In this document: piece by piece, positions 8,611 through 12,372 of the stretch
How positions within the stretch are numbered: position 1 is the first letter of the stretch
Layout of the letters: each line of letters begins with the position of its first letter
Assembly (NCBI RefSeq): GCF_000022145.1
Contig: NC_011891.1
Location: 4,632,501 to 4,696,500, forward strand
Source: Anaeromyxobacter dehalogenans 2CP-1
GTDB lineage: Bacteria > Myxococcota > Myxococcia > Myxococcales > Anaeromyxobacteraceae
Reading direction: 5' to 3'
DNA: 64,000 bases
Program-made: the position numbers and the translations under genes
Notes under the pieces: generated by a model
Seen by the model: the letters and a program-made list of their open reading frames with translations, nothing else
Databases searched by the model: none
Told to the model about the DNA's origin: nothing

Positions 8611-9150
8611 GTGGCCGCCCCCGCCCCGCTCCTCGCCCTCGCGCTGGCGCTCGCCGCCGGCGGCCCGGGGGGTGCGCCGCCGGTGCCGGTGGCACCCTCG
8701 CGGCAGGGCACGCTCGACGCCCGGCGCGAGGCGATCGCGCAGGAGCTGCTTCGGATCGGTGGCGCGCTCCAGCGCGAGATCGAGGCCGGCGACGTGGGCG
8801 CGGTCCTGGCGCGCGTGCCGGCCGAGGGGCTGCGCTGCGCCGGGCAGGTGGTGCCGCGCGCGCGGGTGGAGCGCGACCTGCGCGAGTCGTCGCGCTGGCT
8901 GCACCAGACGCTGTTCGGCGCGCCCGAGGGCGCCGGCGGCGGCGCGCCCGCGAGCCTGCGCGCGTTCCTGGCGCGGGCGAAGGAGGTCGCGGTGATGGTC
9001 AGCTTTCGCCGCGACCCGCGCGCCGGCCCGGTGGGCCGGCCCTGCCTCGAGTTCCGCGCCCGCGACCTGGTGAACCCTGCCCCGCCGTTCTGCTTCGAGA
9101 AGCAGGGCAAGCGCTGGTGGCTCACCGAGTCGCTGTATCCGTGCGGCTGA
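8611..9150 (+). CDS. Uncharacterised secreted protein
   Basis: 179 aa, GTG start. Not recognised. Residues 1-20 form a hydrophobic Leu/Ala segment that reads as a signal peptide. The mature part has an Arg/Glu-rich helical stretch (35-75), four cysteines (RCAGQV, RPCLEF, FCFEKQ, YPCG) that could pair in an oxidising compartment, and ends in WWLTESLYPCG. Transcribed convergently with the thioredoxin/TPR gene, with a cluster of palindromic repeats between them. Confidence 0.6.
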   Translation: MAAPAPLLALALALAAGGPGGAPPVPVAPSRQGTLDARREAIAQELLRIGGALQREIEAGDVGAVLARVPAEGLRCAGQVVPRARVERDLRESSRWLHQTLFGAPEGAGGGAPASLRAFLARAKEVAVMVSFRRDPRAGPVGRPCLEFRARDLVNPAPPFCFEKQGKRWWLTESLYPCG

Positions 9151-9151
9151 C

Positions 9152-9307
9152 GTCCCTCGACTCCGCGCGGCCGTTCGGCCGCGCTACGCTCGGGATGAGC
9201 GACCTCCATCCGCTCACCCTGAGCGTAGGCGGGCCGCAGGCCCGCCGGAGTCGAAGGGTCGCCCTGAGCGTGGGCCACGCCGGCGGCGTGCCCCGAGTCG
9301 AAGGGCC
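9152..9307. repeat. Cluster of three REP-like palindromic repeats
   Basis: Between two convergent genes. Units at about 9216-9259 and 9262-9306 both run CCCTGAGCGT ... GAGTCGAAGGG around a GC palindrome (GGCGGGCC GCA GGCCCGCC in the first). A third unit at about 9152-9194 is the same in reverse orientation, around GCGCGGCCG TTC GGCCGCGC. Each would fold as a strong hairpin and may end transcription from both sides. Confidence 0.8.
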
Positions 9308-10621
9308 TCAGTGCTGCAGCGCCGCCAGGCGGCTGCGGGCGCGGGCGAGCTGGCCGTGGGGCCGGAGCCCCTCCGGCAGCGCCTGCCCCTCGGCGATCGC
9401 GCGCTGCAGGGTGGCGCGCGCGGCGTCGTCCTCCCCGAGCGTCTGCTCCGCCTCGGCCTTCAGCACCAGCACGCGGATGCGCCGCGGCCCCTGGGCGCGC
9501 TCCAGCGCGCGGCCGGCGGCGGCGAGCGCGTCGGCGGGCCGGTCGAGCTTGAGGTAGAGCACGGCCAGGTTGGTGGGCGGCACGTACTCGCCGGGCAGGT
9601 CGCGCTCCGAGGCGAGCAGCGCCGGGAGCGCGCGGGCCGGCTCGCCCAGGCGGACCGCGGCCGAGAGCCGCTGGCCGTCGAACGCGGAGCGCGCGAGGGG
9701 CGTGGGCGCGCGGGCGGCCTCGCGCTCGAGGAACGCGAGCCACCGGCGCGCCAGCGCCTTCGCGCCGGCCGCGTCGCCGGCCGCGTCGCGGGCGGCGGCC
9801 AGGCCGTCGTAGAGCCAGGAGCGGTCGTCGGCGAGCACGTCCTTCGCGTCGAGCGCGCGGCGCGCGACCGGCTCCAGCGCGGCGAGCGCCGCCCGCCGGG
9901 CCGCCTCGTCCTCCAGCTCGAGCGCGCAGGACAGGCCCTGCGCCGCCACCCGGGCCCGGCCCGGGCCGGACGGGACCGAAGGGAGCGCCTCGCGGGCGGC
10001 GCCGGCGCAGGCCGCCGGATCGCCGGCGAGGCCGAGCGCCTGGACCCGCGCCTCCGCGGCGCGGGCGCGGCCCGGCCAGCGCGGGCCGCCCGCCGCGAGC
10101 GCATCCTGGTAGGCGGCGGCCGCGTCGGCGTGGCGGCGCTCGCCGGCCAGGCGATCGGCGCGGGCCAGCGCCGCGTCCGCCTCGGACGCGCGGGCCTTGC
10201 GGAGCGCGCGCTCACCGTCCAGCGCGAGCTTCTCGATCTGCGCGGCGGTGGCCGTGCCGGCCCAGCGGAGCACCACGCCCTCGGTGGCCGGGTCGATGAT
10301 CATCAGCGTGGGCCACACGTCGATCGGGAACTGCTCCACGAACGGCGCGTTGCCGGGCTTCTCGGTGTCGATGTCGAGCCGGACGAACCGCCCGGCGAGC
10401 TTCCGGAGCCGCGCGTCCGGGAGGACGTAGGCCCGCATGAAGCGGCAGGTGGGTCACCAGGGGGCCCAGACGTCCACCAGCATCGGGACGTTCCGGGCCT
10501 TGGCCTCGGCGAGCGCGCGAGGGTAGTCGTCTTCGATGACGCCCTTCGGCGCGGCGGCGGCGGCCGGAACGGCGGCCGAGAGCGAGGCGGCGGCGAGGGC
10601 GGCGAGCAGGGCGGTGCGCAT
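9308..10621 (-). CDS. Candidate selenoprotein: thioredoxin-fold domain with TPR-like C-terminus, in-frame UGA
   Basis: 437 codons if the TGA at codon 56 is decoded. Codons 1-24 give a signal peptide (MRTALLAALAAASLSA then Ala-rich). The frame continues as MLVDVWAPW-UGA-PTCRFMRAYVL, so the stop replaces the first cysteine of the W-C-x-x-C redox motif; the partner Cys59 is kept. The rest of the fold is intact (LDIDTEKPGN; cis-Pro in WPTLMIIDP). From about residue 130 to the end are Ala-rich helical repeats of TPR type. With UGA as Sec, this is an exported UxxC thiol oxidoreductase; with UGA as stop, only a 55-aa fragment plus an internal ATG (10438) ORF remain. The downstream part shows no decay. 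Confidence 0.7.
10454..10456 (-). other. In-frame UGA at the redox-motif position (possible Sec codon)
   Basis: Codon 56 counted from ATG 10621. Flanking codons are TGG before and CCC ACC TGC after, so the motif reads W-[UGA]-P-T-C. A small hairpin (CCGC, 5-base loop, GCGG) begins 9 bases after the UGA, but its loop lacks the G expected in a canonical bacterial SECIS. Confidence 0.65.
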
Positions 10622-10666: not shown

Positions 10667-11179
10667 TCACCGCCCGAGGGCGGCCCGGACCTCCTCGAAC
10701 GTGGACTCCGACAGGTACATCTCCAGCGCGCCCTCCGGCAGCACGAGGCGGGCCGGCTGCCGGAAGCCCTTCTTCGGCGGCTCGGGCGGCCGGGCCTCCA
10801 GGATCTTCGACGCCTCCACCCGGATCGCCACCCGCCCCGCGCGGCGCGCCGCGTCCAGGCCGGCAGCCGTGAGCGGCACCGGCTCCAGCAGCCGCCGCCG
10901 GAACGGCAGCGCGAGCCAGTAGGCGCCCTGCGCGATGACCGCGCCCCACACCACCGCCATGCTCCGCCAGGTGAAGACGTTGACGATGACGGCGAGGAGC
11001 GAGCCGATCATGAGGATGTTCGCGATGCGGTGGACGAGGTCCTCCCAGCGCCGGGGCCGCAGGATCACGAGCTCGCCCGGCAGCACGTGGAGCTGCCCCT
11101 TCACCGCGCCGCCGCGCACCGGCTTGCCGGCCGGATCCACCAGCAGCGCGAGCACCGTCCCGAACGCCTTCGGCTCCAT
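10667..11179 (-). CDS. Small membrane protein, unknown function
   Basis: 170 aa from ATG 11179, which has GGGAGG at good spacing; the longer upstream frame is not needed. Not recognised. Two membrane helices (about residues 52-72 and 77-97) are flanked by a soluble N-terminal domain with a VDPAGKPVRGG turn and a C-terminal soluble domain that ends in a charged helix (STFEEVRAALGR). Upstream of and co-oriented with the thioredoxin/TPR gene, 45 bp apart, so possibly in the same transcript. Confidence 0.7.
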   Translation of the reverse strand: MEPKAFGTVLALLVDPAGKPVRGGAVKGQLHVLPGELVILRPRRWEDLVHRIANILMIGSLLAVIVNVFTWRSMAVVWGAVIAQGAYWLALPFRRRLLEPVPLTAAGLDAARRAGRVAIRVEASKILEARPPEPPKKGFRQPARLVLPEGALEMYLSESTFEEVRAALGR

Positions 11180-11208
11180 CCGTCCTCCCGTCGTGGAAGG
11201 GGGCGAGG

Positions 11209-12372
11209 CTACACCGGCGCGCGCCCGCGCGGGGGTCTTCCGCACAGCAGCCAGTTCGCGACGAACCCCACCCCCACGCCCGCCACGCAGGTCGCGACCA
11301 CGCCCGGCCACCCCGCCGCGTGCAGCGCCAGGCCCGGCACCGCCGAGCCCAGCGTCCCGCCCACGTAATAGAACGTGAGGTACAGCGCGCTCGCGCCGCC
11401 CTTGGCCGTGCGCGCCGTCACGTTCACGAACCCCGGCGCCACCGCCTGCGCGGTGAAGGTGCCGAGCACCAGCACCAGCAGCCCCGCGATCGCGAGCGGG
11501 AGCGAGCCCGCCAGCGCGGCCAGCATCCCCAGCGCCTCGACCACCAGGCCGATGCCGATGAGCCGTCGCGGCGGGATGCGCCCCGCGAGCCGCCCCGCGA
11601 TCGGCGAGGCGACCACGCCCGCCGCGTACACCAGGTAGACCGCCGAGATCTGCCCGGTGGTGAGGTGCCAGGGCGCGCCGGCCAGGTGGTACGGGAGGTA
11701 GGTGAAGATCCCGATCCAGCCGAAGAACAGCGAGGCGCCCACCAGGTAGGCGCCGAGGAGCCGCGGATCGCGCAGGTGGCCCAGCATGCCGCGCGTCGCC
11801 GAGGCCCAGCCGATCACCGGCGCACCCGTCGCCGGCGCCAGGCCGCGCGCGAGCGCGAGCGCCGCCGCGAGCGTCACGATCGCGAACGCGACGAACGCCG
11901 CGCGCCAGCCCGCGTTCGCCGTGATGGCCCCGGACAGCACGCGGCCCGCCAGCCCGCCCACCACCGAGGCCGCGATGATCCCGCCCACCACCGCCGGCAG
12001 GTCCGCGTTCCGGAAGCGGTCGCCCGCGTAGGCCACCGAGACCGCCGTGACCCCCGGCACCAGCACCCCCTGCATGGCCCGGAGCACGAGGAGCACGGAG
12101 AAGGAGGGCGCGAAGGCGCAGGCCAGCGTGGCGAGCGCGAGCAGCGCGGTGGACCCCGCCATCACGCGACGCCGCCCGATCGCGTCCGCCAGCGGCCCGT
12201 AGAAGCTGGAGGCCGCCGCCACCGCGAGCACGACCGCCGAGACCGTCAGGCCCGCCCGCGCCGGCCCCACCCCGAACTCGCGCGAGATGACCGGCAGCAC
12301 CGGCTGCGTGACGTACATGTCCGCGTAGACCGCGACCGTCCCCGCGTAGAGCGCCGCCGTCTCCCGTCGCAC
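11209..12372 (-). CDS. MFS transporter, drug-efflux type
   Basis: 387 aa from GTG 12372. Twelve predicted membrane helices. The N-terminal half has the MFS loop motif in GPLADAIGRRRVM (about 60-72) and a motif-C-like proline/glycine helix; the second half repeats it in GRLAGRIPPRRLIG. The start VTQPVLPVISREFGV is typical of the YnfM/AraJ-like exporter group. The substrate cannot be read from the sequence. No linked regulator is visible. Confidence 0.85.
   Translation of the reverse strand: MRRETAALYAGTVAVYADMYVTQPVLPVISREFGVGPARAGLTVSAVVLAVAAASSFYGPLADAIGRRRVMAGSTALLALATLACAFAPSFSVLLVLRAMQGVLVPGVTAVSVAYAGDRFRNADLPAVVGGIIAASVVGGLAGRVLSGAITANAGWRAAFVAFAIVTLAAALALARGLAPATGAPVIGWASATRGMLGHLRDPRLLGAYLVGASLFFGWIGIFTYLPYHLAGAPWHLTTGQISAVYLVYAAGVVASPIAGRLAGRIPPRRLIGIGLVVEALGMLAALAGSLPLAIAGLLVLVLGTFTAQAVAPGFVNVTARTAKGGASALYLTFYYVGGTLGSAVPGLALHAAGWPGVVATCVAGVGVGFVANWLLCGRPPRGRAPV

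Follow-up and report, generated by a model that had tools for sequence, protein, structure and literature searches.

A predicted thioredoxin-like selenoprotein of Anaeromyxobacter dehalogenans 2CP-1 with a proposed tandem-hairpin SECIS whose G-loop lies 65 nt after the UGA

Comparison with orthologous sequences indicates that the gene at positions 9308 to 10621 (minus strand) of the analyzed window almost certainly encodes, despite an apparent stop at codon 56, a thioredoxin-like protein with a predicted selenocysteine (Sec) residue. Both of the hairpins that follow this UGA are under codon-level selection in the Sec loci and not in the Cys orthologs. We consider it likely that the product is an exported thioredoxin-TPR selenoprotein with the redox motif U-P-T-C, in which SelB and Sec-tRNA-Sec decode UGA 56 with the help of a tandem-hairpin SECIS; the computed support comprises the Sec/Cys exchange, the Sec machinery, the selection on both hairpins restricted to Sec loci and the absence of a SECIS at the canonical distance. 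With slightly less assurance, we propose that this element belongs to a distinct class of bacterial SECIS, in which a SelB-binding G-loop hairpin at 65 nt would be made workable by a spacer hairpin positioned where the mRNA enters the ribosome. The window is the whole stretch of DNA analyzed (64,000 nt), i.e. positions 4632501-4696500 of the closed host genome of 5,029,329 bases. The relevant features, in window positions, are:

9308..10621, minus strand: predicted selenoprotein gene, 437 residues plus stop, with codon 56 = TGA read as Sec
10550..10621, minus strand: N-terminal signal-peptide-like stretch, residues 1-24 (by eye: basic start, hydrophobic core, AxA)
10226..10537, minus strand: thioredoxin-like domain, residues 29-132 (Pfam Thioredoxin_7, 43.3 bits; Thioredoxin, 30.6 bits; both over the cut-offs)
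10454..10456, minus strand: TGA codon 56 (predicted Sec), first position of the redox motif U-P-T-C (TGA in 26 loci, TGC or TGT in 44)
10445..10447, minus strand: codon 59, TGC, the resolving Cys of UxxC
10399..10443, minus strand: hairpin 1, about 45 nt, starting 10 nt after the UGA; proposed spacer (from folds, codon-randomised z and covariation)
10378..10396, minus strand: hairpin 2, GCCGGGCG-GUU-CGUCCGGC, proposed to bind SelB; loop 65 nt after the UGA
10386..10388, minus strand: apical loop GUU of hairpin 2, found in 26/26 Sec loci
9311..10225, minus strand: helical TPR-like tail, residues 133-437 (TPR_12, 23.7 bits, cut-off 30.1; model and fold matches TPR-like)

Translation bears out the frame described in an earlier note on this DNA: it begins at ATG 10621, comprises 55 sense codons, the TGA (codon 56) and a further 381 sense codons, and closes with a TGA stop ending at 9308. 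The internal TGA indeed takes the place of the first Cys of a W-C-x-x-C motif whose second Cys is intact, and reading it as a residue gives VWAPW-U-PTC (in the context VDVWAPW-U-PTCRFM). The Pfam search assigned the region of the UxxC motif to thioredoxin-like families (PF13899, PF00085 and PF13098, all over the cut-off), while the match of the long, Ala-rich, helical tail to PF13424 (TPR_12) is weak and below the cut-off. The AlphaFold model (mean pLDDT 79), calculated from a three-row alignment, shows an alpha/beta N-terminal domain followed by ~300 residues of helical hairpins; its thioredoxin part is poor because of the shallow alignment, and Foldseek searches with it reported almost only TPR proteins, as generic matches. 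The signal-peptide-like stretch suggests that the protein may be exported, and its fold suggests a putative thiol-disulfide reductase or isomerase function.

The protein shares with the bacterial thioredoxin selenoproteins (PF00085, UxxC) the thioredoxin fold, a Sec residue (here predicted) that opens the redox motif, and the existence of Cys homologs. It differs from them in its predicted export, in the TPR-like tail of ~300 residues and in its score for the classical thioredoxin model TIGR01068, which is well under the cut-off (30 bits vs 96.8). The Trx7/PDZ selenoprotein (NF041199) and TsoB (NF045694) contain related thioredoxin-like domains, but match it only weakly (14 of 300 and 25 of 805 bits, respectively, far under the cut-offs) and have other partner domains. 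The 2006 inventory by Zhang et al. gives eleven selenoproteins for A. dehalogenans, among them "thioredoxin (2)" (PMC1794560). The gene described here is the only TGA-containing match to PF00085 in the host genome and is therefore probably one of these two; thus, the Sec protein as such has probably been counted already, and the new part is the geometry of its SECIS.

The assignment of Sec to codon 56 is supported by an alignment of 70 orthologous loci, all from one class of bacteria. The equivalent codon is TGA in 26 of them and TGC or TGT in the remaining 44, no other residue occurs among these loci, and the exchange always affects the first Cys of W-C-x-x-C. According to the taxonomy codes, the TGA loci span 13 genera and four families. 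Among them are loci from six further Anaeromyxobacter genomes (protein identity 69-96%), which excludes chance or a sequencing error; the nearest named relatives are PSR-1 (95-97% protein identity) and A. soli and A. terrae (70-71%). On a tree inferred with the trait column masked, at least six Sec/Cys changes are needed, and the independent switches are few (sign test, median p 0.125). Two candidates flagged as containing one TGA were discarded: a sequence from genome G003 (L028) encodes a normal WCAPC thioredoxin, and its TGA is simply the stop codon of that gene, and the ortholog from G129 has Cys at codon 56.

The host genome encodes all four components of the Sec pathway for which the earlier note had proposed a search: selA (over the cut-off), selB (649 aa, over the cut-off), the tRNA-Sec gene selC with the anticodon UCA (76.7 bits, in agreement with ARAGORN) and selD (381 bits), which carries an in-frame TGA of its own. 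Single in-frame TGA codons are also present in three formate dehydrogenase/molybdopterin oxidoreductase genes and three peroxiredoxin-family genes. selA scores above the cut-off in every genome with the TGA form of the ortholog, and a full selA is missing in four of the examined genomes with the Cys form (G017, G053, G076 and G091). One of these, G076 (genus code g21), is a complete genome with a Cys-type ortholog whose genus mates possess selA, and it has likely lost the use of selenocysteine recently.

These data bear on two readings in which codon 56 is not Sec. If the TGA were an ordinary stop or a null mutation, the gene would be split into parts that decay or work separately, and an ORF caller that does not allow read-through does start the second part at ATG 10438, as the earlier note anticipated. 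However, the TGA has been kept in 26 loci across a long divergence, the frame downstream is intact, the sole other residue at this codon is Cys (in 44 loci), and the selection on the RNA, described below, is specific to the TGA loci; we therefore rejected this explanation as extremely improbable, which upholds the earlier preference for Sec over a null mutation. Programmed read-through by another tRNA (e.g. Trp or Cys) is also very improbable: stem-loops downstream of a stop codon can in general stimulate read-through, and could do so here, but the alternative residue in the orthologs is always Cys within a catalytic CxxC motif, the full Sec pathway is present in the genome, the TGA form never occurs in a genome that lacks selA, and the loop of hairpin 2 is of the SECIS type.

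In the bacterial SECIS model, the apical loop must lie 16-37 nt after the UGA and contain an early G (PMC13188914, PMC10778597). We scanned the loci with a simple version of the published bSECIS rule (hairpin energy of -7.5 kcal/mol or lower) and found a qualifying hairpin with a loop 16-37 nt after the UGA in 0/26 Sec loci, and one at ~65 nt in 26/26. The statement of the earlier note that no canonical SECIS is visible thus holds for the zone that had been searched, but a SECIS-like hairpin farther downstream had been overlooked, and the 60 nt after the UGA, which the note proposed to scan, contain no qualifying hairpin. The short CCGC/GCGG hairpin mentioned there was rejected as a SECIS: its loop is 12 nt after the UGA and lacks a G at positions 1 and 2, and the hairpin is not kept in all Sec orthologs. 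The Rfam search, low-scoring matches included, reported nothing.

The distant element, hairpin 2, has the consensus GCCGGRCG-GUU-CGUCYGGC and satisfies the bSECIS hairpin pattern in 26/26 Sec loci, with all 8 pairs formed in 25 of them. One pair shows a GU/AU/GC exchange and another a GC-to-AU double change. The hairpin as a whole is nearly invariant, and its loop fits the N-G-U-N-N pattern exactly. When the first 9 nt after the UGA were kept unpaired, mimicking the ribosome, the pair probability of hairpin 2 was ~1.0 in 26/26 Sec loci, compared with a mean of 0.08 in the Cys loci. Hairpin 2 shares with the canonical bSECIS (E. coli fdhF type) the 3-nt G-U loop, the closing pair and a stem of 4-16 bp; it differs in that its loop lies at 65 nt instead of 16-37, nearly twice the published bacterial limit, with the structured hairpin 1 in between. 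We infer that hairpin 2 is the site of SelB binding.

The distant hairpin was located by means of codon use. In Sec loci, the third codon positions of codons +8 to +32 after the UGA exhibit an identity of ~0.8, compared with a mean of 0.63, an excess not seen after the equivalent codon in the Cys loci. Codon +20 is GCC in 24/24 full-length Sec loci and mostly GCG in the Cys orthologs, some of which (e.g. L062) specify the peptide AGRFVWL, also found in several Sec loci, by codons that do not form the hairpin. Folding after randomisation of synonymous codons gave for both hairpins together a mean z of -2.92 in Sec loci (26/26 negative, from -1.74 to -4.83) and -0.13 in the 44 Cys loci; the separate values (Sec and Cys, respectively) were -2.68 and -0.44 for hairpin 2, -2.01 and -0.41 for hairpin 1, and -0.29 and +0.23 for the canonical zone, and the flanks in Sec loci gave small values (upstream -0.51, downstream +0.36). 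The Sec alignment contains 20 double-change cells, compared with 7.3 in column shuffles, a number reached in 0/500 shuffles, and a Cys alignment of matched size and mean identity revealed no covariation above shuffles. The RNAalifold energies were -22.95 kcal/mol (Sec) and -2.72 kcal/mol (Cys).

Three Cys orthologs with the genus code g16 (L064, L070 and L072), close to the Sec sequence L077, still possess an intact hairpin 2, and another genome of the same genus, G042, has kept the TGA. The hairpin 2 of these Cys orthologs is likely a fossil SECIS that persists after a recent Sec-to-Cys change.

Hairpin 1 ends 2 nt before hairpin 2 and is less uniform: its inner register differs between clades and its loop varies (UCCC, UCAC, CUUCAC etc.), with no early G. 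RNAalifold draws in its place a short hairpin beside the UGA (columns 8-25); for this reason hairpin 2 is firm, while the exact form of hairpin 1 is not. It is conceivable, though in our judgment unlikely, that in this selenoprotein SelB binds hairpin 1, or else the small CCUGC/GCGGG hairpin next to the UGA, at an ordinary distance and through a loop that lacks the usual G, and that hairpin 2 merely helps, e.g. by pausing the ribosome. Hairpin 1 is likewise under selection (see its z above), its apical loop lies ~30 nt after the UGA in several loci, and the small hairpin shows a C-G/G-C exchange in 6 sequences. However, the canonical zone as a whole exhibits no folding selection, the variable loop of hairpin 1 contrasts with the nearly invariant hairpin 2, and in selD it is again the second hairpin that bears the G-loop. 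We infer that hairpin 1 serves as a spacer and not as a recognition element: it varies in length and register, its loop has no early G, and the layout of selD points the same way.

In 22 selD loci of Anaeromyxobacteraceae (L142-L163) two abutting hairpins follow the UGA: after 7 nt comes the hairpin AGATCCGC-CCN-GCGGATCT (19 nt), and directly after it a second hairpin, GGCGCAG-GUN-CUGCGCC, which bears the G-loop. The selD element thus shares its arrangement with the thioredoxin gene, but its first hairpin has only 19 nt and its G-loop is 33 nt after the UGA, within the normal range; it is therefore a parallel, and no second long-distance case. At least one pair of selD hairpin 1 is weakened in several of the 22 loci, and the hairpin is weak outside Anaeromyxobacteraceae; in the distant selD L168 it is preserved by changes on both sides. 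The formate dehydrogenases and two peroxiredoxin-family genes with clear hairpins have single hairpins at 19-23 nt, and a third peroxiredoxin-family gene has a plausible loop ~27 nt after the UGA. In this last gene (L132, G000:C1:1431339-1431743, with an in-frame TGA) no hairpin at 12-45 nt satisfies the simple bSECIS rule, and the weaker fold found there has a GAUCU loop; its SECIS may also be unusual.

Counted as unfolded bases between the UGA and the loop, the distances are ~20 nt in the thioredoxin gene, 14 nt in selD and 19-27 nt in the other SECIS genes. With the UGA in the A site, the E. coli SECIS has its lower part unwound inside the mRNA tunnel and its upper part intact (PMC4513850). 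By the mechanism that we propose, SelB and Sec-tRNA-Sec would read UGA 56 while the first ~10 nt of the mRNA beyond it are inside the entry channel, and hairpin 1 (45 nt), which begins about where the tunnel ends, would stay folded at the channel mouth. Hairpin 2, 2 nt beyond it, could then be contacted at its GUU loop by the winged-helix end of SelB, the folding of hairpin 1 having shortened the unfolded distance from 65 to ~20 nt, a value of the ordinary SECIS of the same genome (19-27 nt). Spacer hairpins of 19 nt (selD) and ~45 nt (thioredoxin gene) are proposed to hold this distance near 14-20 nt, and both hairpins would decay once codon 56 has turned to Cys.

According to reviews, some bacterial selenoprotein genes carry SECIS elements that do not conform to the 16-37 nt rule, and there must be distinct classes, none of which they describe (PMC9312934, PMC13188914), and our literature search, which was short on subscription papers, found no description of a two-hairpin or remote bacterial SECIS. 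The thioredoxin gene provides a concrete example of a non-conforming SECIS with a built-in evolutionary control, as the hairpins are lost where the same protein has Cys. A two-hairpin rule would aid the detection of genes missed by programs that rely on the SECIS distance, would show the reach of SelB, and could relax the sequence constraint beside the UGA in the engineering of Sec into proteins.

Analysis of the genomic neighborhood revealed that the upstream neighbor (window 10667-11311) accompanies the selenoprotein gene in the closest genomes only, and that the adjacency of the convergent downstream neighbor (window 8611-9150) is kept in the other Anaeromyxobacter loci. The intergenic region at 9160-9307 contains CCTTCGACTC.../GCTCAGGG motifs repeated in both directions and looks like a dispersed REP-like repeat.
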